A stretch of DNA of 23,492 bases from a virus, in IMG/VR virus record IMGVR_UViG_3300025889_000968, positions 1-23,492 of that record. One strand, given 5' to 3'. The notes under the pieces were generated by a model. That model did not search any database. It was not told the origin of the DNA and saw nothing but the letters and a program-made list of their open reading frames with translations. The translations under genes were made by a program, and so were the position numbers. Positions 3,275-20,961 of this stretch are shown here, in pieces. The number at the start of each line of letters is the position of its first letter. The stretch's first letter is position 1.

Positions 3275-3277
3275 GCG

Positions 3278-3347
3278 TCACTCGTAAAGGATATTGATAG
3301 TGCCAGCGTCGAAGGTGTTTGTGCCGCCGACTGTGGTGATGCGGACT
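3278..3347 (-). repeat. 3' repeat copy A, shared with 4781-4850
   Basis: The last 70 bases of this gene match the last 70 of the gene at 4781-5353 at about 58 positions by eye. They encode the same TFDAGTINILYE end. Conservation this high over the 3' end, with more divergent middles, points to duplication with continued exchange, or to a recombination handle for swapping tips. Confidence 0.8.
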
Positions 3348-3814
3348 TGCGTTAAAGTATCTGAGAGGGTTTTTGACCCTGCAAACATTTTAGGTTGACC
3401 AGAAGCATTGATCGCAATGACTCCACTAATTACCCAAGAGTTTGAGCTATTTACAAGAGCAATTGTTGCAACACCGGAATAAGCACTAGCAGCGGCAGGA
3501 GAATAAACTAATTGAAAGCCCGCAGTAGACGCGCCTTCACTACCCCTATCGCCGGAGCCACCTAAATAACCTGTGTTTTCAATACCGCCAGAGTCACCTA
3601 ATTGAATTAACCACGGCGATGTGCCGCTTGTCGACACGTTGCTAAACATCACAGTAATTTTCTTCACCCACGAAGGAATGCCTGTGAAGTTCACAGCAGT
3701 ACCTGAGGCCGTTACCGCCGTACCCGACACAACGGGGTACACCTGACCTGTTACGCCATCGACTTCATAGTCGGGCGAGCTGATACCATTTGTACCATCA
3801 ATCACAACAGCCAT
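3278..3814 (-). CDS. Short fibre-tip/adhesin-like protein (paralogue A)
   Basis: 178 residues, Gly/Ser/Thr/Val-rich and probably all-beta. It starts MAVVIDGTNGISSP, a common phage fibre opening. From about residue 28 it aligns with the product of the gene at 4781-5353: SGTAVTASGTAVNFTGIPSWVKKITVM against SGTAVSASGTSVDFTDIPSWVKRITVM. Both end TFDAGTINILYE. I take this as a receptor-binding tip or fibre-associated domain present twice. A TAATG junction and AAGGAG site tie it to the preceding chaperone-like gene. No enzymatic motif is visible. Confidence 0.75.
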   Translation of the reverse strand: MAVVIDGTNGISSPDYEVDGVTGQVYPVVSGTAVTASGTAVNFTGIPSWVKKITVMFSNVSTSGTSPWLIQLGDSGGIENTGYLGGSGDRGSEGASTAGFQLVYSPAAASAYSGVATIALVNSSNSWVISGVIAINASGQPKMFAGSKTLSDTLTQVRITTVGGTNTFDAGTINILYE

Positions 3815-4134
3815 TATGCTTCTCCTTCAGGTTCAACGACTGGCTCAACGACTGGCTCAACGACTGGCTCTGGCTCGACCACAGGTTCTGCCACAGGTTC
3901 AACGACTGGCGCAGCGCAGCTCAAGGCTTTCAGTTCATCCAAGGTAGCGCAGGTATCAACTTGGCTCGTAATGTCACGCAGACGCTGCTTCTCAGCCACA
4001 ATCGCTGCTGTATCGCTACCAGACTCTAACGCACGTTGGAATGCGACATCCTGAGCAGCTAGAAGCGGCGCACGTTCAGCACGAAGCCGATCTTTAGTAA
4101 TCGACTTGGCCTTGTCCAGATCAATCGTAATCAT
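3814..4134 (-). CDS. Tail-fibre assembly/chaperone-like protein with VVEP repeat tail
   Basis: 106 residues. The first 70 (MITIDLDKAKSITKDRLRAER, AEKQRLRD, LDELKAL) resemble the short helical proteins found next to phage tail fibres (XkdW/DUF4376-like fibre-assembly proteins). That match is from memory of the motif pattern. From residue 77 to 102 it becomes a run of VVEP/VAEP/EPEP units, acidic and disordered, encoded by a DNA tandem repeat. It overlaps the upstream gene by ATGA and touches the downstream fibre-tip gene by TAATG, so it would be made together with the tip. Role as a folding helper is inferred. Confidence 0.7.
   Translation of the reverse strand: MITIDLDKAKSITKDRLRAERAPLLAAQDVAFQRALESGSDTAAIVAEKQRLRDITSQVDTCATLDELKALSCAAPVVEPVAEPVVEPEPVVEPVVEPVVEPEGEA
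3829..3906. repeat. Short tandem repeat coding (V/A)VEP units
   Basis: On the plus strand the unit GGCTCAACGACT recurs in tandem at about 3841-3876, with variants on both sides (GGTTCAACGACT, GGTTCTGCCACA). On the minus strand this encodes VVEP-type units at residues 77-102 of the chaperone-like protein. The unit is a multiple of three, so slippage would change repeat number without breaking the frame. Confidence 0.85.
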
Positions 4135-4322
4135 TCGGTCACCTCAGTAAAGTCAGCCGTCCAAGCGTCACGGAATGTACGGTCAGCAGGAATGTCAGCA
4201 GCGTCAACGATCTTATAAGGCTTGCCCGCAGGAATGTCTTTCATCGCCGCTTCAACCGATTCCGCTGGGATGATGACTGCGACACCGCCGTCATCTGTTG
4301 GGTAAATTATTCGTGAGTTCAT
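4131..4322 (-). CDS. Conserved small phage protein near tail fibres
   Basis: 63 residues: MNSRIIYPTDDGGVAVIIPAE..., then AGKPYKIVDAADIPADRTFRDAW. I recognise this pattern (RIIYPT at the start, GKPY-I-D-A-DIP-DRTFR-AW near the end) from small proteins next to tail-fibre genes in many podoviruses and siphoviruses. No function is known to me. A clear AGGAG site precedes the ATG, and its stop overlaps the next start (ATGA). It is probably co-translated with the chaperone-like protein and may be part of fibre assembly. Confidence 0.7.
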   Translation of the reverse strand: MNSRIIYPTDDGGVAVIIPAESVEAAMKDIPAGKPYKIVDAADIPADRTFRDAWTADFTEVTE

Positions 4323-4330
4323 GGTTTCTC

Positions 4331-4771
4331 CTATCGGAAGACTGAGACATTACATTCTGCTGAGTCCAGCATAACTGAAGCGTATGCATCTCCCGTTGTA
4401 ACTTGTATTTGAGTTGTAGATTTTAAAACTGCTGCACCACTAGAGCCAGCAATTACCATTGTTCTTGCGTTATTTGTTGTGGACGCTCCAGCGCTAGTTG
4501 TATTTACTGCATAGTTTGCATCAGGCATAGCAGTCGTAAAGTTGACCGTGTAATCACCCGTACCGTTATCCGTAATACTCGACACATTCAACGATGCACG
4601 AATAGCGACAGTGCCGGTTCCGTTAAAGTTGACCCAAGCGCGGCAGAACGTACCAATCTCAGTACCTGCGCTATCCTGAATAGTTGGCGGCGTATTGGCT
4701 ACACCGTTCTTTAGCACCAGCGTACTTGTCGATGCTGCTTGTATGTTATCTGCTACGATAGTTCCAGCCAT
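4331..4771 (-). CDS. Short fibre/adhesin-tip protein
   Basis: 146 residues, starting MAGTIVADNIQAASTSTLVLKNG, a common phage fibre or baseplate-decoration opening. The middle, CRAWVNFNGTGTVAIRAS then ITDNGTGDYTVNFTTAMPDANYAV, is a module I know from the C-termini of many aquatic phage fibre proteins. It is probably beta-rich and ends AECNVSVFR. An AGAGGAC site precedes the ATG. Unlike its two neighbours it does not carry the NILYE end, so the cluster contains at least two unrelated tip types. Receptor binding is inferred. Confidence 0.75.
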   Translation of the reverse strand: MAGTIVADNIQAASTSTLVLKNGVANTPPTIQDSAGTEIGTFCRAWVNFNGTGTVAIRASLNVSSITDNGTGDYTVNFTTAMPDANYAVNTTSAGASTTNNARTMVIAGSSGAAVLKSTTQIQVTTGDAYASVMLDSAECNVSVFR

Positions 4772-4780
4772 GATGTCCTC

Positions 4781-4850
4781 TTATTCGTAGAGAATGTTAA
4801 TAGTGCCGGCGTCGAAGGTGTCTGTGCCATTGATTGTGGTGATGCGGACT
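4781..4850 (-). repeat. 3' repeat copy B, shared with 3278-3347
   Basis: This is the partner of the repeat at 3278-3347, in the same orientation and offset by 1503 bases. It contains runs such as GCGTCGAAGGTGT and TGTGGTGATGCGGACT (plus strand) that are identical in both copies. The stop codon differs (TAA here, TGA in copy A). Confidence 0.8.
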
Positions 4851-5353
4851 ATATCTAGCGCACCGCCCAGAGTTACAGTACCTGCAATTACGTTAAACCC
4901 CGCTAATGACGTAGCTATATTTCCAGAACCGACCCAAGCATTACTGCCAATTAAAGTAAATACAGCAGCCCCATAAGCAGCATTTGCCGCAGTCAATCCG
5001 CCATACATATCAAAACCTGCGGTAAAAGTTTGCGTTGTTGGTGATCCACCTGAATTGGATGCTGCTCCTAAGTACCCAGATGTTGCAACCGTACCGCCCG
5101 TTCCTAACCTAAAACGCAGTGATGAACTTCCACTAAGGCTAATACCATTCAACATCACCGTAATCCGTTTGACCCATGATGGAATATCCGTAAAGTCAAC
5201 GCTTGTGCCAGACGCAGACACAGCCGTACCCGACACAATCGGAGCCAACGTACCAGTGACAGCAGCCAACGTCTGCGTATTACTGCCAGCAACAGCAGGG
5301 GCAGACACCGTAACTGTGCCGCTGGTATCGCCTGAGAGAACTAAAGATGCCAT
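4781..5353 (-). CDS. Short fibre-tip/adhesin-like protein (paralogue B)
   Basis: 190 residues. The ATG at 5353 is chosen because AAAGGAG lies at good spacing; an in-frame ATG at 5404 has no such site and would overlap the upstream fibre gene. The N-terminus (MASLVLSGDTSGTVTVSAPAV) is a typical phage fibre leader, different from that of its paralogue at 3278-3814. The body and the end TFDAGTINILYE are shared. This looks like the same tip module on two different leaders. Gly/Ser/Thr-rich, probably beta-structured, no catalytic motif. Confidence 0.75.
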   Translation of the reverse strand: MASLVLSGDTSGTVTVSAPAVAGSNTQTLAAVTGTLAPIVSGTAVSASGTSVDFTDIPSWVKRITVMLNGISLSGSSSLRFRLGTGGTVATSGYLGAASNSGGSPTTQTFTAGFDMYGGLTAANAAYGAAVFTLIGSNAWVGSGNIATSLAGFNVIAGTVTLGGALDIVRITTINGTDTFDAGTINILYE

Positions 5354-5363
5354 GATTACTCCT

Positions 5364-6254
5364 TTAAATGACGATCCACCGACTGCCGGATGGAACGGTG
5401 ACAATCACCGGCGCGGTGATGTCGTCCAGCGACACCGACTGCGAGATGTCCACTTCGTAGGTACCAATACCACCGGTGCCGGTACCCAAGGTTGTGATGA
5501 CCGTGCCCACTGTGATGCTGGTGCCGACAATCACCGAACCCACACCCAAAACGCCGGAAGTAACGGTATCAATCGTCAGCGTCGTGCCAGCGATACTGCC
5601 GGTGCCAACAAAGCCAGCATCCAGCGTGATCGGGCCGGTCGTCATGGCGTTCTTGGTAGCCGGAATTGTATAACTGATCGTAACCGTCTGATCGTTTTCG
5701 ATGAAAACTTCATCATTACCACCGCCGGTCGCGCCTGCTGCACCGCCCACCTGACCCCAGGCGCCATTAACAAACCCTTCAAACAGATTCAGCGTGCTGT
5801 TGTAGCGGAACATGCCGTCTGTCGGCGCGTCAGGCCGGTCAGTTGTGGCGCCCACAGGCATCTGCACGTAGCCAAAACCGGAGAAGGTGACGTCCTGCGT
5901 GGCTGAAAGAGTAGTGAACGCGCCCGTATCGGGCGACACGTCACCAATCGGGGGTGGCGAGCCGAACGACAGGTTGTCCACAGGCACCAGGATATTGTCG
6001 GTGGTGTACTGGGTGACATCGTTCTCGTCGGTGACGACGAACTTGTACGCAATCGTTGGCTGCAGCCAGATGTTGGCCATGCCCCGCGCATCAAGAATGA
6101 TCGGGTTGGCGTTAGCTGTGCCGCCCGCCTGGTCGGTGTAGGTCGCAATCGGTGTCGTCGTGCCACCGGCGTAGGTGTAGACCTTACCAGCTACCAGCGG
6201 GTTGCCGTTGGCGTCGAAGAACTGCTGCTTGGGTGTTGGGGTTAAGGATGCCAT
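5364..6254 (-). CDS. Tail fibre protein with tailspike head-binding-like N-terminus
   Basis: 296 residues. Residues 11-95 ([50 protein letters not shown]) match the conserved particle-binding domain at the start of many podovirus fibres and tailspikes. [11 protein letters not shown]...[12 protein letters not shown] segment follows, then a Gly-rich linker and a low-complexity Thr/Gly/Val stretch. It ends [12 protein letters not shown], nearly the same end as the 644-residue fibre (VTVSSGSRWVVV). It is too short to hold a full tailspike beta-helix, so the tip genes just downstream may complete it. GAGGA precedes the ATG. Confidence 0.8.
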
Positions 6255-8450
6255 TTATTTCCTCAGATTGTTTCGGTTTTCTGGCGCTAACACGTTGACC
6301 ACAGCCCCGCGCCCTTCTTTTGGTATCACAGCCCACTCCTGCGGATTGTTCAACGCGCGCAGCACAACGTTGCGCTCCACAGCCGGCAGCGTATCAAGCA
6401 GTTTAGCCATGTTTCGGCCTGACTTGGACGCTTCCGTCAATTTGTTCATCACGTTTTTACCCAGCTTTTTCTCCAGCGCGTCCAGCGTCGCATTGGTCAG
6501 CGTGGCTGCACGACTAAAAAAGGCAGGTAAACGAAATTTGGTGGCATTAGCCTCAATCAGCTCGCGCAAGGCGTCCCGGCCAGCTGCCGCCTGCTCACCC
6601 ACGCGGATGTCGCGCTTGACTTCGCCGGCAACACCCTTCAAGGTCGCCACGGCTTTAGCGCTCATCTCTTTAGCAATGTCGTAGCTGCCCGAGCCAAAAA
6701 TCTTTTCAACTTCTTTGGGGCTGTTGCCTTCCACTAGTTTAATAAACGCTTTTGGGTCGTTCTGGTACATCTCCAGCGCTTTGGCCGACAATTTCTTTTG
6801 GCTGACGGCTTTTAGCCCTTGCGAATACGCATCAAGGTAGGCGCCATATCCGGTGCCGCCTGCGTCTTCAACGGCTTTGACAATCGAAGGCCGCACGCTT
6901 TCCAACACTTTGGCGGCTAACTCTTTCTGCGCCTTGGGGTCGTTGGGGTGCAGTTGTTTGGCAACTGCATTGACTGAGTTTTTGCGAATGGTGTCCAGCG
7001 CCCATGCGTCAATTACCCCGCCCAGATTCGTCCACTGTTTAATATCGGATGCGACGCGGCCCAACGCACGTTGCAGATCGCGGTTGCCGGGTGCGAGCTT
7101 GGGATCGGCCAACGTCTTTTCAATGCTGGCAACAATCGCGTCGCCTTTGAGTGGCTTTAAGCCGTGCGCTTCCAAGCTGTTGGCCGCGGCGGTGGCAAAG
7201 CGCGACGCCTCACCAAAAATAAGCGAGCCTTCAGCAGCCTGTGTGGCTACATCATCAGCACGTTTGGCTAGTTCACCTTCGTAGGTATAGCGCCCTGTGC
7301 TGACCGGACGGCCAAGCTCGATAGATTTTTGCTGACCTTTTTCTAGTAGGCGTGTACCTGCCGGCACAGTGCCTTCTGCCGCAGGCACTAAACCTACTAC
7401 GGGTTCTTGCTTTATTACGCCGGGCGGCACGGCTGACAAGCGTCGTACTTGGTCAGATTTTTGTGCAGCCACTGTACCCATACGCTCGGCTTGCGCTTCC
7501 AATGCGGGCTTCAACGCACCTGCCGTATTGGCGGCTGCCATCTCAACTTCAAGCTGCGGAATCAGCTGGTTGCGCAACTCTTTCTTAGCTTGACCTTGCG
7601 CAGTTCTTGCGCCCGTTTGCGTTTCAGCGCCAGCCAACTCAGCCAGCTTATTTAGCCGGGCGGCCTCTTGAGCTTCTGCGGTTGTCAGCAGGTAGCGTGG
7701 GTCACGCTTGGCCGCCCGCTCCAGCAACGCCTGCGTGGTGGGTGAGGTTAGGTCGGCAATCGACTGTGCAGCGGTCACATCAGTCGGCGCATTGCGAGCC
7801 AAAGCACGGGCGGCTGCTACATCAACGCCCAGCGAGTCACGCAGAATCTTGGCGGCTTTTTGTGCGCCGATCTGGCCAGACAAGGTATCGTACAGCCAGC
7901 CAAGACCGCGCCCACCCATCTGCAAGGCTTTATTAACCATCGGCGCAGCAACCTGACCGCCTGCCTCAAAGATGGCGCCCATCAACAGATCGCGGGTACC
8001 AGCTTCGATACCCTGGCCGGCAGTCATCTCAGGTATGTTGCCCAGCGCGATGTCGGCTTGACGCAACAGCCCTGACGCTAGCCCGTAGCCGCCAGCCGAA
8101 CCCATAACAACGCCGGCGGGGCCAGCTGGTGCCCCAAAGAAACCACCCGCTATTGCACCGCCCGCCTCCAATGTCGGGCCAAGAAATTGCCGTGCAGTTT
8201 GCGCGGCGCTATAAAGGCCGGGGTAATCTTTAGCGAACGGAGGCGGCTGCACGCGTGGCCCCGGCACTTCGCTTACAGGCGCTTGTTCTGGCGTGGCAGG
8301 CAGTGGAGTGTCAAATATCCATTTGTCATCAACAAGATAAGCTTTAGCGCCTTCTTTGTTAGTCGCTGATTCAGTAATGGGCCGCCATTGCCCATTAACG
8401 AGCGCAACGCGCTCGCCAGTTTCAGGGTTAGTTGCGGTTTCCAGAGCCAT
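6255..8450 (-). CDS. Putative DNA-ejection / internal virion protein (large)
   Basis: 731 residues. The N-terminus has two related short units (GERVALVNGQWRPI and GAKAYLVDDKWIFD). A hydrophobic Gly/Ala-rich segment follows at about 91-128 that could insert in a membrane, then a long Ala/Lys/Glu helical body. No lytic transglycosylase or other enzyme motif was seen. Its place as the third protein after the gp7-like one matches P22 gp16, which is ejected with the DNA, so an ejection role is inferred mainly from position, size and composition. It joins the upstream gene by TAATG. Sequence similarity to P22 gp16 was not established. Confidence 0.6.
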   Translation of the reverse strand: MALETATNPETGERVALVNGQWRPITESATNKEGAKAYLVDDKWIFDTPLPATPEQAPVSEVPGPRVQPPPFAKDYPGLYSAAQTARQFLGPTLEAGGAIAGGFFGAPAGPAGVVMGSAGGYGLASGLLRQADIALGNIPEMTAGQGIEAGTRDLLMGAIFEAGGQVAAPMVNKALQMGGRGLGWLYDTLSGQIGAQKAAKILRDSLGVDVAAARALARNAPTDVTAAQSIADLTSPTTQALLERAAKRDPRYLLTTAEAQEAARLNKLAELAGAETQTGARTAQGQAKKELRNQLIPQLEVEMAAANTAGALKPALEAQAERMGTVAAQKSDQVRRLSAVPPGVIKQEPVVGLVPAAEGTVPAGTRLLEKGQQKSIELGRPVSTGRYTYEGELAKRADDVATQAAEGSLIFGEASRFATAAANSLEAHGLKPLKGDAIVASIEKTLADPKLAPGNRDLQRALGRVASDIKQWTNLGGVIDAWALDTIRKNSVNAVAKQLHPNDPKAQKELAAKVLESVRPSIVKAVEDAGGTGYGAYLDAYSQGLKAVSQKKLSAKALEMYQNDPKAFIKLVEGNSPKEVEKIFGSGSYDIAKEMSAKAVATLKGVAGEVKRDIRVGEQAAAGRDALRELIEANATKFRLPAFFSRAATLTNATLDALEKKLGKNVMNKLTEASKSGRNMAKLLDTLPAVERNVVLRALNNPQEWAVIPKEGRGAVVNVLAPENRNNLRK

Positions 8451-10868: not shown

Positions 10869-11225
10869 TCAATACTCCTTTTGCAATTCGCTTGCGATGT
10901 TTTGCGCGGCGGCCATATCGCCCGGCGCAATTAAAACTTCGTCAATTTCGTATTCATCCACACAGCTTGTGGCGTGAATGCAATACCAAACTACATCAGT
11001 TAACGCTTTTACGCCGTGGTGCTTATTAGCTTCTATGGTCAACAAAGCTGGCGCACACAAAATGTCTTTTTTGCCGTCAACCAAAATTTCAACTTGACCT
11101 TCAGCCAAAATAGACATGTGGTCGTATTTGTGCGCATGCTGTACTAACACTTGCCCAGCAGGTATGCGAGTTTCTTTAGCGTATACGCCGGAGCTAAAAT
11201 AATGACTAATCACACCACCACCCAT
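10869..11225 (-). CDS. Cupin-fold protein
   Basis: 118 residues. PAGQVLVQHAHKYDHMSILAEG (from residue 22) fits cupin motif 1, with His30, His32 and His36. LLTIEANKHHGVKAL holds the second motif histidines (69, 70). A metal site is therefore likely, though no substrate is indicated and the usual motif-1 glutamate is not in place. Similar cupins (HFSSGVYAKE start, DVVWYCIHAT end) occur in other podovirus structural regions. The ATG at 11225 overlaps the fibre gene by 16 bases. A GTG at 11213 (start VISHYFSSG) gives a 4-base GTGA overlap and would match the shorter homologues I recall, so the true start is uncertain. Role in the virion or infected cell unknown. Confidence 0.8.
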   Translation of the reverse strand: MGGGVISHYFSSGVYAKETRIPAGQVLVQHAHKYDHMSILAEGQVEILVDGKKDILCAPALLTIEANKHHGVKALTDVVWYCIHATSCVDEYEIDEVLIAPGDMAAAQNIASELQKEY

Positions 11226-13144
11226 CTTGAGCCGCTAGACACCGTCACTGTCGTGCCACTAGATACTGTTACCGGGCCAGCTGACATGCCTGACGTGCCT
11301 GCGGCGATTGTGTAGCTGGTGTCGATAGTTAAACTATTGACAAATATACCATTGCCCGCTACGAAATGCTCCGATGTTAATTCACCTGTGCTAGGTTTGT
11401 ACAGATATTTGGCGTTGCTGGTATAGATGGTCGACAGCGAGCCGGACGTGGCAGCTGCAAACGTCGGATAGACGTTCGTTGACGTGCTAGTGTCGTTCGT
11501 AATCGTGGCGCCCGAGCCAGTGGCCACCGCCCAGGTTGCTGTCGTGCCGTTCGATGTCAGCACGTAATTATTGGCGCCAATCGGCAGGCGAGTCGAGCTG
11601 TTGGCGCCGTTGCCGATAATTAAGTCGCCTGTGCTAGTGACCGGCGACAGGGCGTTAAAGGCTGCACTGGCAGTCGTCTGGCCTGTGCCGCCGTTGGCGA
11701 TCGGCAGCGTGCCGGTCACTTGGCTGGTTAGATCCACGCCGGTCAGAGTGCCACCCAGTGTCAGGCTGCCGCTAGATGTGACCGTGCCAGACAGGCTAAT
11801 ACCGTTGACCGTACCGGTGCCAGACACACTAGTGACGGTGCCGGTGTACTGGTCGTTCGACGTGATGGTGAAGTTGGGGTACGTACCTGAGATGCTGGTC
11901 GTGCCCGCACCGGTCAACGACACCACTTGGTCAGGCAAGGTATTGGTGATCGTAAAGTTAGGGTACGTGCCGGACGTGCTGATGCCTGTGCCGCCGGTCA
12001 AGGACACCGTTTGGTCTGGCGCGGAGTTGTTGATCGTGACCGCGACCGAGCCATTGTAGGTCGTGCCAACGCTGTACGAGATGCCGGTGCCGGCAGTCAA
12101 AGCATTGGCCACGCTGCCAACGCCTGTGACGCTGCTAGGGGGGACGTTTTTCCAGTATTGAGCCGTGCTGTCGTACTGAATTAAATCACTATTGGCTAGC
12201 GTTGAGAACTGTACGTTGGAGTCCGTACCGCCCAACACGGAGCCTGGCCGCAGAAGTACCTGAAACGACCCCGACCCGCCTGGCCCTGCGGTAATGATGA
12301 TGCCGACTTGCACCTTAATGTTGGGCGCGGTAGGCTCGACATTAGTCGGGTTGCCGGTTACCGGGTTGTACCAAATAATGTCGTCATCAGCCCACGTTTC
12401 ACCGTAAGCGGTTCCGTTGGTGGTGATATTACGAACCACGCCAAAGTTGGTGACTCGACCAAAACCGTTTAGCGCAATATTTTCAGTAGCAACGCCAACA
12501 ATCGCGTTTATGTCCGTAATGCCTGCAATCGTAGGGGCAAAGGTGATGACGCCACTAGCACCTACCGTACCTGTATGGTAGACAATCTGAAGCGGCGAAT
12601 CGGAAATAGCCGCTGTGGCTTTACCGTAAACAAAAACCTCTTCACCTACCTGCTGGGTAATGTTGCCACCGCCCATGCCCATGTTCCAGCTGCCGGTGGT
12701 TTGGTCATACCACATGCGGCCAGCAGCCAACGTGGTGCCGGAACCATTACCCATCTGGATGTAGGTGGGTGAGCTGATAGCCCCTGTAATGCCCGACATC
12801 GAGGTGATGTCTGAGTTGGCACCTAATGCGGCTGCACCCAGATTAGTGCGCGCGCCAGAGGCTGTAGTAGCCCCTGTGCCGCCGTTATCGACGTCTAGGG
12901 TTCCGGCCAAGGTAATCGTGCCGGACGTCGTGACAGGCCCGCCAGAAGTCGTCAACCCCGTTGTGCCGCCGGAGACATTGACCGATGTGACCGTGCCTGT
13001 GCCGCCGCCCCCGCCGCCTGAGTTGGCTTTGTTGAGTAGGTTTAGGAAAAACCGATACCAATCCCGCGAGACAAGCCCCGTCCGCTCGTCGATGATTGAC
13101 GATTGGTTTTTGGGTAGTTGTGGCTCGTTATCTGGGTTAGGCAT
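11210..13144 (-). CDS. Long tail fibre protein
   Basis: 644 residues from the ATG at 13144, which overlaps the gp10-like gene's end by 8 bases. The longer frame to 13225 sits wholly inside that gene. The N-terminus (QSSIIDERTGLVSRDWYRFFLNLLNK) is a known fibre opening in podoviruses and probably binds the tail. A six-glycine linker follows, then TGTVTSV and NGGTG repeats, two 24-residue units at about 377-428, and a beta-rich end finishing VTVSSGSRWVVV. The gene stands where P22 has its tail needle gp26 and follows gp10. The C-terminal part should contact the host surface; receptor unknown. Confidence 0.85.
   Translation of the reverse strand: MPNPDNEPQLPKNQSSIIDERTGLVSRDWYRFFLNLLNKANSGGGGGGTGTVTSVNVSGGTTGLTTSGGPVTTSGTITLAGTLDVDNGGTGATTASGARTNLGAAALGANSDITSMSGITGAISSPTYIQMGNGSGTTLAAGRMWYDQTTGSWNMGMGGGNITQQVGEEVFVYGKATAAISDSPLQIVYHTGTVGASGVITFAPTIAGITDINAIVGVATENIALNGFGRVTNFGVVRNITTNGTAYGETWADDDIIWYNPVTGNPTNVEPTAPNIKVQVGIIITAGPGGSGSFQVLLRPGSVLGGTDSNVQFSTLANSDLIQYDSTAQYWKNVPPSSVTGVGSVANALTAGTGISYSVGTTYNGSVAVTINNSAPDQTVSLTGGTGISTSGTYPNFTITNTLPDQVVSLTGAGTTSISGTYPNFTITSNDQYTGTVTSVSGTGTVNGISLSGTVTSSGSLTLGGTLTGVDLTSQVTGTLPIANGGTGQTTASAAFNALSPVTSTGDLIIGNGANSSTRLPIGANNYVLTSNGTTATWAVATGSGATITNDTSTSTNVYPTFAAATSGSLSTIYTSNAKYLYKPSTGELTSEHFVAGNGIFVNSLTIDTSYTIAAGTSGMSAGPVTVSSGTTVTVSSGSRWVVV
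11861..12016 (-). repeat. Imperfect 72-base direct repeat in the fibre gene
   Basis: Two 24-residue units, coded by 11945-12016 and 11861-11932, start DQ(T/V)VSLTG and end SGTYPNFTIT. They match at 18 of 24 residues and are separated by NTLP. This is typical of fibre shafts that grow or shrink by recombination between units. Confidence 0.8.
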
Positions 13145-14570
13145 TGGTGCCGGACAACGCAAGTTCGGCACCCAAAATGGCGATCTTGACGGGGTCGGTG
13201 CCTGATACCTCGTACACGCGGTCACGCAGCTTGTCAGTCATACCTAACCGACGCCAGAACGCTCTGAATCCATAATTGCCCATTTTGCCCATGCCAGCCC
13301 ACTTCTCGTTCGACCAGGTGTGGCCACCATCGTCTGAGAAGCGCAGCATGACTTTAGGGTCGTTGCCTTGGCCAGTTACCAGACCCACACCGGTTTCGCA
13401 CTCAAGCTGCAAGGCGTGTTGGGCAGTACGCTTTAAGTTGTTCTGGCCGGTGGGCAGCGCCCGCCACGACCGCAGCCACTTCTGGGGCAGGTTGTCGTCG
13501 GCAAACACGTCCAAGTCGTATGCGTAGATCTTGCCGTTTTGAAAGTCGCCCACAACAACCTGGTTGTTGAAGAACGTCTGGCAGTTTGCGCGATGGCGGA
13601 TAAACTGGCCGTTAGCAAACCCGGCGCGCTCATGCCAAGCGCCTATCGCCACATCAAACACCCATGTTCGCTGGGCGGTCGGAAAGGTCAGCACGTAGAA
13701 CGAATGACCGTCCTGCTGGTAAGTAAAGCCGATTGCGTCTGAGATGGTGCCATAACTCTGGATAGCGTACTCGACCGCGTGGGTAGAGATGCGCTGGCCA
13801 GAATAACCATTAGCCCGAAAAACAATACCTTGGCCACGGGCGTCAGCGCCTAGCCAGAATAGCGAGTTGTCCATCTTGGCAACTGAGAAGGTCGCTGCAC
13901 AGCCAATTTCGTTAACTGCACCTTGGATACGCGCCAGCGGAAACGGCGTGTCGCCAGCGTTGTACCAAACTTCAACCGATTGGGTGCCAAACAGCCACAC
14001 CTCGCGGTGGTCGACAAACAGCGAGATCAGATCGTCAGGCATACCTTCAGCACTGGCAAACGACAGGGGGTCAATCTGCGTGCCGTCAAGCAGCTCGGAC
14101 GTCCAGAATCGCTGAGAGTTTGGCTCTTGGAAAATGAAGTAGCCATCCAGATAGCCCACCGTCACTGCGCCGGGGAAGTCCACGTCAGTAATTTCGGCGT
14201 AGGCTTCGGTTGCCGCGTCGTAGATGTAGCCGTCGGGGTTGGCCGCGATAAAAAGCTGCGTGCCGTTGTCGACCATCGATACAGGGCCAGTGCCGCTGAC
14301 GTTGCCAACAGGTGTGGCCACCCAGTTGCTGTCGACTCGGTACAGTTTGCTGCCTGAGACGACGTACATGTAGTCGCCATACGACCACAGCCCCCGAATG
14401 GGGCCGGTGCCTACGACGCCTAGCTTGCGCAAGCCTGGCGCTCGGTTCAAGTACGCAGGCTCCATACCTTCTGGCGCCGGTGTGGCTTCAGGGTACAAGT
14501 TCACCATTCGTGAGTCCGCTGCGTTGACGCTGCGGGCTACGTAGGATTGACCGAGAATGGGTGTTTTCAT
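13137..14570 (-). CDS. Packaged-DNA stabilisation protein, P22 gp10-like
   Basis: 477 residues, close to the 472 of P22 gp10. It opens MKTPILGQSYVARSVNAADSRMVNLYPE and has NRAPGLRKLGVVG, then repeated beta segments such as GLWSYGDYMYVVSGSKLYRV, VWLFGTQSVEVWYN and LFWLGAD, all typical of the phage stabilisation family. It ends with a FSDDGGHTWSNE and FRAFWRRLGMTDK region. It closes the portal channel after packaging by binding below the gp4-like ring. Its start overlaps the 151-residue gene's stop (ATGA). Confidence 0.92.
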   Translation of the reverse strand: MKTPILGQSYVARSVNAADSRMVNLYPEATPAPEGMEPAYLNRAPGLRKLGVVGTGPIRGLWSYGDYMYVVSGSKLYRVDSNWVATPVGNVSGTGPVSMVDNGTQLFIAANPDGYIYDAATEAYAEITDVDFPGAVTVGYLDGYFIFQEPNSQRFWTSELLDGTQIDPLSFASAEGMPDDLISLFVDHREVWLFGTQSVEVWYNAGDTPFPLARIQGAVNEIGCAATFSVAKMDNSLFWLGADARGQGIVFRANGYSGQRISTHAVEYAIQSYGTISDAIGFTYQQDGHSFYVLTFPTAQRTWVFDVAIGAWHERAGFANGQFIRHRANCQTFFNNQVVVGDFQNGKIYAYDLDVFADDNLPQKWLRSWRALPTGQNNLKRTAQHALQLECETGVGLVTGQGNDPKVMLRFSDDGGHTWSNEKWAGMGKMGNYGFRAFWRRLGMTDKLRDRVYEVSGTDPVKIAILGAELALSGTNA

Positions 14571-18676: not shown

Positions 18677-20961
18677 AGCTGGGGTTCCTCGGGCGGTATA
18701 TTCATCATTTCTGGCGGCATTTGGGCCGATTCAGGTGGAATCATACCCATTTCAGGTGGCATTTGCTGCATTTCTTGCGGCATTCCACCCATTTCAGGTG
18801 GCATTTCACCCATTTCACCCATCAATTCTTGGCCTTGTTGCTCCATTACCAAGTCGCCCGTAGTCATGACGTCGCGCAGTGTTTGCATGACGACTTCTTG
18901 CACTTGCTCTGGATTCATGGCGCCAGATACGGCAGTTAAGCGCTGTGTCTCGGCCTGATACGCCTTAATTTCGGCTTCGAACGCCTTGCGCTCCAAGTCC
19001 TGAACTTCGACCGATTTACCAACATTTTGCAGCATCTGCTGGAGCTGATCCAGCTCTTGGCCCATTGCTTCCATCTGCATCTTGGCCTGCTGCATCTCGG
19101 GCGAATCGTCGGTATCGGCCATAATTTTCGGGTCGATAATTTTGGCAAACCGATCCGCCATCTCCTGCGCGCCTGGCCAGTCCATGTTCTTAATGAACAG
19201 GTCGCCAGCGACTTGCCAGAGCTGCGGGTTGGATTGCAAGATCATACCCATCGCGTCCAGTGCCTCCTGACGCTTGGTCATGTAGGATGGGCCGGTGGTG
19301 ACCACCACGTCGTACTTACCGACGCCGGGGTTGTAGATTTTGTCAATGACGATATTGTTCTCGTCTCGGATTTCTTTAACTGGCTCTTGCTGGGCCGGAT
19401 CGAGCTTGACCATGTCGGTGTCGCCGTCCAAACCAATGATGCGAGCCACACGCTGGGTGTCGTAAATCTTCGGAATCAGACCAACGAGCTGACGAGTGAC
19501 ATGCCGGACAGCCCGCGCCAGATTATCGACGTAATGATAAGTGCCAGTGTCAGACTGACGCTCGCGCGCCAGAATTGCCTTGCCCGAACGCTCATTGGAG
19601 GTGGCTCCCAGACTGGTGTCGTACTGCCCCGTGGTCGACTTGATGTCGTCTGCCGACCCCATTTTGGCCTGAATCAGGCCCGTTTGCGGCAGTGGTGGTG
19701 GCGCGCGTTGCGGCAATGGAAGCACTGCACCATTTCCGTCGGTTACGTCGGGATTAACCTCCAAATACGGCCAATTTTGCGTGTTTGCGGTCTTCCATTG
19801 GGTTTCGTACCCTTCAAACTGCCCGCCGTAGCCAATAAAGGGTGCTTTTGGTGCCAAAGCCAGCATTTCTGCTTCTTGTGACACCCAATAGTTGTACATC
19901 CGCTGCGCATCCTTGGCATTTCTGACCAACCCTGACACGTACAGCTTGCCTTCTACCTCAAATTCGTTGCCAATGACGCGAACGACCGGTATCCAGTCGC
20001 CTGCCCAGTCGCTTTTTTCCAAAAACTCGTAGCCATTCGTCTTGCACCACTTGACCCGCTTGGCGTCCACCCGGCGGCTGCGCACAGGTTTGACGCCCAT
20101 TTGCTTTAATTGCTTGGCTTCGGGCGAACCCTCGAACGCCGTGATGTTGCCTGGGTACAGGTGCAGCGTCGCTTTGTCGTATTCAATGTAGTAATACTCG
20201 GCGATACGCACCGTGTCTTCGTTAATCCAGACGTTGATTGACTGGTCGCCAATACCCAGCGTTTGCAAACTGGAAATAGGCGACGCATCAGGGAACAGAC
20301 GCTCATATTCGTCGCGCTGCAGGTCTTCGGTAACAAAACACCACTTCGCATCCGCGCCGCAGGGGTCTTGAATCGTCGGATCCATGTAGACCGAGAACGA
20401 GTTTCTGACCCGCATGATCTTGATGTCTTGATCGAACGTGTTGTCGTCGCAGTACTCGGTAATAATCCGAATGTAGCCCTCACCGTAACTTACCTGGTTC
20501 TCGCAGGCGGTGTCGTAGGCGACGTCGGCATCTGAGATGTACTCGATGTGCCTGACCATGCCGTTGTAGATTTCGGCCACTTCCGGGTCGGCTCGGTCGT
20601 CAGCGGGTATAACTTTGCCGCTCGGACGGTTTTGTCTTTGGTCGTTCGTAACTTGTCGGACATGCTGTGGCAGCTTGTTGATGGTCAGTGTCGGACGAGC
20701 GTTGATCGTCTGCCCCTGCACCGCGCCACGCGTTGCCAGAACGTCGGCTGGCCACTGCCAGTGGTTGTCCGGCGAGCCTGCATAGAAGCGCAGGTCGTCT
20801 AGTTCATCTTCACGGGATTCAGAGAGCGCGGAGATCGCCATATTCAGGCGAGTCCGCATGGTGGCCAGCGTGTCGCTGTCGTCCTTGTCGACGTTGGCGG
20901 GCTGCGGGTTGCCGCCGATTGCAGCGACCTTAGCAGCCGAATTTATGCCGGTGTAGTCCAT
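18673..20961 (-). CDS. Portal protein, P22-like
   Basis: 762 residues (P22 portal: 725). Segments in order: DDLRFYAGSPDNHWQWPADV (about 55-74), PTLTINKLPQHVRQVTNDQRQNRPSG (about 90-115), VSYGEGYIRIITEY (157-170), RSGKAILARERQSDTGTYHYVDNLARAV (458-486), and a helical barrel region (600-680). All are typical of the podovirus P22-type portal. The ring of twelve subunits is the channel for DNA packaging and the site for gp4-like binding. The C-terminus (about 718-760) is a Met/Pro-rich PPEM repeat, unlike the long helical barrel tip of P22. Confidence 0.95.
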   Translation of the reverse strand: MDYTGINSAAKVAAIGGNPQPANVDKDDSDTLATMRTRLNMAISALSESREDELDDLRFYAGSPDNHWQWPADVLATRGAVQGQTINARPTLTINKLPQHVRQVTNDQRQNRPSGKVIPADDRADPEVAEIYNGMVRHIEYISDADVAYDTACENQVSYGEGYIRIITEYCDDNTFDQDIKIMRVRNSFSVYMDPTIQDPCGADAKWCFVTEDLQRDEYERLFPDASPISSLQTLGIGDQSINVWINEDTVRIAEYYYIEYDKATLHLYPGNITAFEGSPEAKQLKQMGVKPVRSRRVDAKRVKWCKTNGYEFLEKSDWAGDWIPVVRVIGNEFEVEGKLYVSGLVRNAKDAQRMYNYWVSQEAEMLALAPKAPFIGYGGQFEGYETQWKTANTQNWPYLEVNPDVTDGNGAVLPLPQRAPPPLPQTGLIQAKMGSADDIKSTTGQYDTSLGATSNERSGKAILARERQSDTGTYHYVDNLARAVRHVTRQLVGLIPKIYDTQRVARIIGLDGDTDMVKLDPAQQEPVKEIRDENNIVIDKIYNPGVGKYDVVVTTGPSYMTKRQEALDAMGMILQSNPQLWQVAGDLFIKNMDWPGAQEMADRFAKIIDPKIMADTDDSPEMQQAKMQMEAMGQELDQLQQMLQNVGKSVEVQDLERKAFEAEIKAYQAETQRLTAVSGAMNPEQVQEVVMQTLRDVMTTGDLVMEQQGQELMGEMGEMPPEMGGMPQEMQQMPPEMGMIPPESAQMPPEMMNIPPEEPQL
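18682..18810 (-). repeat. Repeat coding the Met/Pro-rich portal tail
   Basis: Plus-strand words ATTTCAGGTGGCAT and close variants recur at short intervals here. They encode PPEM/PQEM/PPES units in residues 718-760 of the portal. Repeat units differ in length, and the protein stretch has low complexity. Confidence 0.75.

Follow-up and report, generated by a model that had tools for sequence, protein, structure and literature searches.

A likely three-slot array of receptor-binding tips with slot-specific leaders and exchangeable bodies in a P22-like podovirus

We analysed the record IMGVR_UViG_3300025889_000968 over its full 23,492 nt (23.5 kb, hereafter the window). On its minus strand lie genes for terminase, portal (phrog_156), coat (phrog_283), gp10-like head closure (phrog_578) and DNA ejection (phrog_598), which together form a P22-like block for head and tail; judged from these genes, the window is a fragment of the genome of a P22-like podovirus, short-tailed and aquatic. 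An earlier note on this DNA had described four fibre- or adhesin-like genes within 3 kb, and all four were confirmed on the minus strand. Our results make it likely that this block is a three-slot array of receptor-binding tips, in which an anchored base (FIB) would carry tips docked through short leaders, each with an exchangeable body that would bind the host. The features on which this reading rests are the following.

3275-6254, unstranded: the complete island, flanked on one side by the stop of the 6255-8450 gene and on the other by the start of the 3053-3274 gene; close relatives lack it.
5364-6254, minus strand: FIB, base fibre protein of 296 amino acids (aa), with an N-terminus like a tailspike head-binding domain (residues 7-89) and a C-terminal terminal motif with an inserted domain (residues ~215-281).
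4781-5353, minus strand: TIP1, slot 1, with leader MASLVLSGDTSG... (residues 1 to ~50) and a predicted beta-sandwich body.
5156-5203, minus strand: seam of TIP1 (SVDFTDIPSWVKRITV), kept in every slot that holds a TIP body; column entropy 0.5-0.9 bits, codon sharing at ITVMF 1.71 times expectation.
4871-5071, minus strand: hypervariable segment of TIP1, residues 95-161 (strands 4-8); mean entropy 2.35-3.0 bits versus 0.4-1.5 in the flanking strands.
4784-4852, minus strand: conserved end of TIP1 (IVRITT...TFDAGTINILYE); 85% DNA identity to the TIP2 end, codon identity 1.37 times expectation over the last 25 alignment columns.
4331-4771, minus strand: TIPX, slot 2, with leader MAGTIVADNIQ...; first 88 aa conserved, C-terminal part variable, FR end conserved; phrog_11355.
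3278-3814, minus strand: TIP2, slot 3, with leader MAVVIDGTNGI... (residues 1 to ~38) and a body of the TIP1 family.

The particle-binding domain that had been proposed for FIB was borne out by matches of residues 7-89 to solved tailspike head-binding domains (7eeq, E = 1.2e-7; 9vyg, E of ~1e-6), and the C-terminal domain of the protein gave a PHROG tail-fibre match. TIP1 and TIP2 proved to be related proteins with different leaders, as the note had said: they are 49% identical over 161 aa (BLASTP, E = 1e-36) and share 66 bp at 85% DNA identity at their 3′ ends. TIPX had been called an unrelated tip, and profile comparison ruled out a relationship with TIP (probability 0.2%). TIPX matched the tail-fibre family phrog_11355 (E = 1.6e-20) and TIP2 the tail-fibre family phrog_18673 (E = 4.3e-6). 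Pfam and NCBIfam searches with FIB and all tips of the window gave no match, and nothing significant came up when PDB sequences were searched with profiles of TIP and TIPX. In the AlphaFold2 model of TIP1 (mean predicted local distance difference test score, pLDDT, 84.6) the protein is predicted with confidence as a beta-sandwich from about residue 40, mostly above 90, while the first 40 residues scored ~53-68, as one would expect if the leader needs partners. Within the predicted sandwich, the variation sits in strands 4-8, and strands 1-3 and 9-10 are conserved. A structure search found the same fold in many phage proteins, including some of fibre length, and in some cases as a 40-50% identical sequence within proteins of 300-900 aa, and at the C-terminal end of a 468-aa protein of Pseudomonas phage AH02. 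These families and folds support the view that the short proteins are virion tips.

To place the island among its relatives, we collected contigs by searching with TIP1, the ejection gene, FIB and the endolysin. The wider set comprised 62 non-identical stretches, three of them empty, and the core set 39 complete, non-identical islands whose base was at least 78% identical to the FIB of the window; the island-carrying relatives are metagenomic contigs, and slots were assigned with an automatic open reading frame (ORF) caller and pattern matching. An identical island (100%) was present in one further IMG/VR contig. The earlier note had proposed a comparison across relatives for tip exchange, and instead of the same four genes without exchange we found 34 gene orders among the 62 stretches, orders that rest on a simple ORF caller and of which some differ just by small extra ORFs. 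The underlying layout was constant: all 39 islands had exactly three tip slots, and slot 1 always began with the leader MASLVL or MSSLVL. Slot 2 was of two kinds: TIPX, accompanied by its two small genes, or a gene with the leader MAVTLNASTS, in several cases behind another small gene (MHRIVVDVQTGQV...); in one island (L114) the slot-2 leader bears a Peptidase_S74 fibre-chaperone body (E = 4.4e-13). Slot 3 mostly showed a leader of the MxVxI(N/D/S)G type on one of three body families, and one slot-3 leader type bears either a TIP body or the unrelated TIPY body. One extra ORF was seen in 4/39 islands and was identified as a GIY-YIG or HNH endonuclease, through Pfam in L107, L118 and L143 and through near-identity in L129. 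Across the wider set, free-standing HNH/EndoVII-like or GIY-YIG-like genes stood between tip genes in nine stretches (the same four and L085, L163, L086, L154 and L160), six of them checked by Pfam or PHROG and the others recognised by resemblance.

The island also behaves as a unit, which the earlier note had not described. In L083/L084 and L090/L091, whose ejection protein is 82-86% identical to that of the window, the ejection gene is followed directly by the homologue of the 3053-3274 gene, with no base and no tips. The empty junction of L083 reads ...GAGGAAATAGTAG|ATGGACTCGCAAG, and the window reads ...GAGGAAATAA|ATGGCATCC, then the island, then GAGTGACGC|ATGGATTCGCAAG. These relatives indicate that a genome has either the entire island or none of it, at a clean insertion site. 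Where it is missing, other genes are retained in the interval from gp10 to the ejection genes. The neighbouring ejection protein (6255-8450; homologues in L003, L018 and L020) is as mosaic as the tips, being 70-86% identical in some relatives and 27-37% in others whose base protein remains 83-85% identical.

Leaders and bodies follow different rules. Among the 78 TIP-family tip genes of the 39 islands, the median identity of leaders was 0.80 within the same slot and 0.40 across slots, whereas that of bodies was 0.50 in both comparisons. When slot labels were permuted within genomes, the same-minus-cross difference was +0.338 for leaders (p = 0.0005) and +0.005 for bodies (p = 0.037), the latter a detectable but very small residue. 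Similarly, the nearest leader lay in the same slot for 77 of the 78 genes, and the nearest body for 39 of the 78 (29.8 expected). FIB (median identity 86% across the 39 islands) and the downstream gene, with medians of 86-88%, are far better conserved than the bodies of all three slots (42-51%).

Traces of body transfer were found at the DNA level. In slot 3 of L102, the gene matches that in slot 1 of L141 over 449 bp at 96.7% identity, while from FIB into slot 1 these two phages are 80.8% identical and the slot-1 leader of L141 matches that of L102. The overlap between both matches, 89 bp at L141:9028-9116, contains the seam, which locates the join there. Slot 2 of L012 combines the leader of its own slot with a body that is 89% DNA-identical to slot 1 of L003/L004, and here too the matches overlap in the seam. 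The slot-1 genes of L003 and L004 have bodies that are 100% identical in DNA between 600-bp flanks of 81-82%, and L020 and L022 show the opposite pattern, with FIB at 96%, slot-1 leader at 98% and body at 45%. In comparisons across slots of different phages, codon agreement (observed/expected) was 1.71 at ITVMF, 1.37 at the 3′ end and also just upstream of the seam, and 1.08 in the variable segment, a pattern that is suggestive, not proof, of crossover points. The 34 gene orders, the slot-specific leaders with nearly slot-free bodies and the body transfers strongly support exchange of tips between phages and between slots.

According to the proposed arrangement, FIB would be the conserved base, anchored on the virion tail, and the three short proteins would be tips, probably trimeric. 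The short N-terminal leader of each would serve as a positional address that docks at a given place on FIB or on a partner, leaving the C-terminal body to contact the host surface. All three tips would probably be produced from a single transcript and appear together on the particle. In the shared family, each body lies between two stretches of conserved DNA, the upstream seam and the 3′ end, which makes body replacement by homologous recombination possible; recombination with co-infecting phages, and between slots, could thus replace bodies while the leaders keep assembly intact. A more ambitious version, to which we give rather little credence, is a full address-and-body system, in which three leaders fix three positions on the particle and a population-wide pool of compatible bodies moves from position to position and from phage to phage by way of built-in recombination seams, at times aided by the free-standing endonuclease genes inside some arrays.

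Several observations weigh against the tip-array reading. A PDB fold search with the TIP model gave no match at E<0.001, and its best matches (galectin, xyloglucan-enzyme and tail-needle-knob folds) were all weak. The structure model of FIB was poor (mean pLDDT 48.8), too poor for a fold search, and no docking site is visible in it. Leader-body and FIB-body similarity remain weakly correlated (r 0.13-0.28), so linkage has not been fully erased. The raised codon sharing at the ends could instead reflect constraint on the DNA.

Other explanations account for part of these data. FIB, TIP1 and the slot-2 and slot-3 proteins might follow one another as segments of a single linear fibre, like T4 gp34-35-36-37, with every leader docked on the end of the preceding protein. 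Such a fibre would fit the fixed order and slot-specific leaders of all 39 islands, as well as the partial linkage between the body types of slots 2 and 3 (TIPY goes with MAVTLNASTS arrays; Fisher p = 0.005). However, a given type of slot-3 leader can come after either of the two unrelated bodies of slot 2 (INGSAGV type, 5 and 11; IDGTNGI type, 5 and 5), which chain docking would not easily allow, and bodies are highly variable in all three slots (median identity 0.42-0.51), as though all were exposed; we therefore regard a serial fibre as improbable. About equally improbable is that the short proteins, instead of being primary receptor-binding tips, decorate the virion or bind carbohydrates as accessory proteins. 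The TIP fold does weakly resemble lectin-like sandwiches, and the absence of FIB and all three tips from the close relatives L083, L084 and L090 means that the island is not essential in every relative; yet the genes that these relatives hold between gp10 and the ejection genes could serve adsorption, FIB has a tail-attachment domain, one slot-2 leader bears an S74 fibre tip, and the PHROG links point to tail fibres.

That TIP2 is simply a diverged duplicate of TIP1 in this lineage, without exchange, is very hard to reconcile with the comparison, even though the two share 49% identity and nearly the same ends: bodies resemble each other no less across slots than inside one slot (medians of 0.50 and 0.50), near-identical bodies occupy different slots of different phages, the mosaic junctions contradict it, and the array is a recurring three-slot structure rather than a local duplication. 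Equally remote is programmed variation, by which a diversity-generating retroelement or DNA inversion would change or switch tips within a lineage. One distant homologue is annotated as 'major tropism determinant protein', and variability is concentrated in one segment. However, no match to RVT_1, resolvase or phage integrase was found in 16 records (the window fragment and 15 relatives, most of 35-38 kb), with RVT_1 control genomes positive, and retroelement and invertase were rejected on this ground. Inverted repeats were few, short and imperfect, with no convincing pair, and the differences between tips include indels and wholesale body replacement. The note had left open alternative or mixed tips. 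The absence of these enzymes in the 16 records, together with the operon-like packing of the island, makes mixed display with homologous exchange likelier than programmed switching, for which we found no support.

The packing is tight, with gaps or overlaps of ~0-10 bp between island genes, and Shine-Dalgarno-like sequences precede TIP1 (AAAGGAG), TIPX (AGAGGA), g4131 (AGGAGA) and TIP2 (AAGGAGAA). Between TIPX and TIP2 lie two small genes, of which the second, g4131, was not in the earlier note.

4131-4322, minus strand: g4131, small protein accompanying TIPX; the order TIPX-g4131-TFA/TFA78 recurs in TIPX islands.
3814-4134, minus strand: TFA, small protein resembling tail-assembly chaperones, with a Val/Glu/Pro repeat tail; weak Phage_tail_APC match, and phrog_4912 tail fiber assembly (E = 0.0035).
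3833-3870, minus strand: 12-bp tandem repeat within TFA, 3.2 perfect copies, in frame (Tandem Repeats Finder).

The slippage-prone repeat that the note had attributed to an assembly-like gene is thus real, whereas the chaperone assignment is weak: TFA matched Phage_tail_APC at E = 0.025, with 14.9 bits against a curated cut-off of 26.6, and matches at E<=0.1 in 12/18 relatives were also weak (best 0.0011). Because the 12-bp unit keeps the frame, slippage would alter length and not an on/off state, and the repeat was ruled out as a switch. In relatives the tail is present, short or absent, and the repeat appears to be incidental to exchange. The Shine-Dalgarno-like AAGGAGAA directly ahead of TIP2 is encoded by the EGEA with which TFA ends. 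The alternative slot-2 small protein (MHRIVVDVQTGQV...) also ends in a repeat, of Pro/Val/Glu, whose copy number differs (L114:9386-9538, L111:9378-9554, L119:9481-9645); this tail resembles that of TFA, though both proteins look unrelated.

Elsewhere in the window, a small cupin-like protein (10869-11225) with PHROG short tail fibre and tail fibre adhesin matches (phrog_12032, E = 8e-19) adjoins a second fibre gene (11210-13225), and the two form a possible second adsorption module. The terminal motif of FIB (Y.IP..KNA...GPIT ... VTV.....W.I/V), which is split by the inserted domain of ~67 aa at residues ~215-281, is uninterrupted in this second fibre and in L025 and L049. A 21-bp tandem repeat at 18730-18817 encodes a Pro/Glu/Met-rich tail at the 3′ end of the portal gene, and scans for Rfam families and tRNAs found none in the window. 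The annotated genomes nearest by portal, those of phage DSL-LC05 and an uncultured podovirus (70-71%), lack the tip island. Portal relatives at ~67-80% identity are mostly contigs labelled beta- or gammaproteobacterial, nearly all of them metagenome bins, and a host from these groups is only suggested by such labels; a search for FIB in bacterial genomes gave no match.

If the tip-array reading holds, the island would offer a natural, countable example of how probable receptor-binding parts can change while assembly stays intact. From the split between leader and body one can predict the places at which recombination should occur, and podoviruses of this kind are small enough for a practical test of joint versus one-at-a-time display of tips. 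The comparison further brings out a group of binding bodies, uncharacterised so far, that have their attachment end in common. With its swapped bodies and slot-bound leaders the array is modular in design, which probably lets the phage keep pace with changing bacterial surfaces.

The closest known parallel is the branched tailspike cluster of Ackermannviridae, in which conserved N-termini anchor and dock, C-termini are variable and bind receptors, and tsp4/tsp5 recombination has been obtained in the laboratory (PMC11414711). The island shares with it a cluster of genes of receptor-binding type (FIB and three tip slots in 39/39 islands), although binding is here predicted; slot-specific conserved N-termini with variable C-termini (leaders 0.80 versus 0.40; bodies 0.50 and 0.50); and one member with a virion-anchor domain (FIB, 7eeq, E = 1.2e-7). 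Unlike the Ackermannviridae tailspikes, which are linked by XD and TD domains, the tips of the window are of 146-190 aa with leaders of 25-50 aa and belong to a P22-like podovirus; Pfam and NCBIfam recognised no enzyme or docking domain in them or in FIB, and no direct comparison with XD and TD was made. FIB resembles a P22-type tailspike in its head-binding domain, in a genome with a P22-like portal, coat and gp10, but no beta-helix enzymatic body was recognised (296 aa, no Pfam match) and its end is formed by a small fibre motif into which a domain is inserted. In T-even phages the distal adhesin occupies a single position, and Tetart and colleagues reportedly described in 1998 how specificity regions of the distal tail-fibre adhesin are swapped by recombination between conserved motifs. 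Exchange between conserved motifs is common to both systems, whereas here each genome has three positions and bodies move among them. The island differs from targets of diversity-generating retroelements in that a linked reverse transcriptase was found in 0/16 records, the window being a fragment, and from invertible fibre loci of the Mu/P1 type in having just short imperfect inverted pairs and no resolvase or integrase in the 16 records. Shuffling of receptor-binding protein domains, with a conserved N-terminus and an exchanged C-terminus among close relatives, is also established (PMC10684548); the examples considered from that source are single genes across phages, unlike the fixed three-slot array with inter-slot transfer measured here in one clade. 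No earlier description of a three-slot array was found in the literature searched, most subscription papers being outside its reach. Conserved N-termini with exchanged C-termini, and branched docking clusters with laboratory recombination, are already known; what appears to be new is that P22-like podoviruses of aquatic origin have a compact form with three slots, together with the quantified separation of address and body, and the transfer of bodies between slots.

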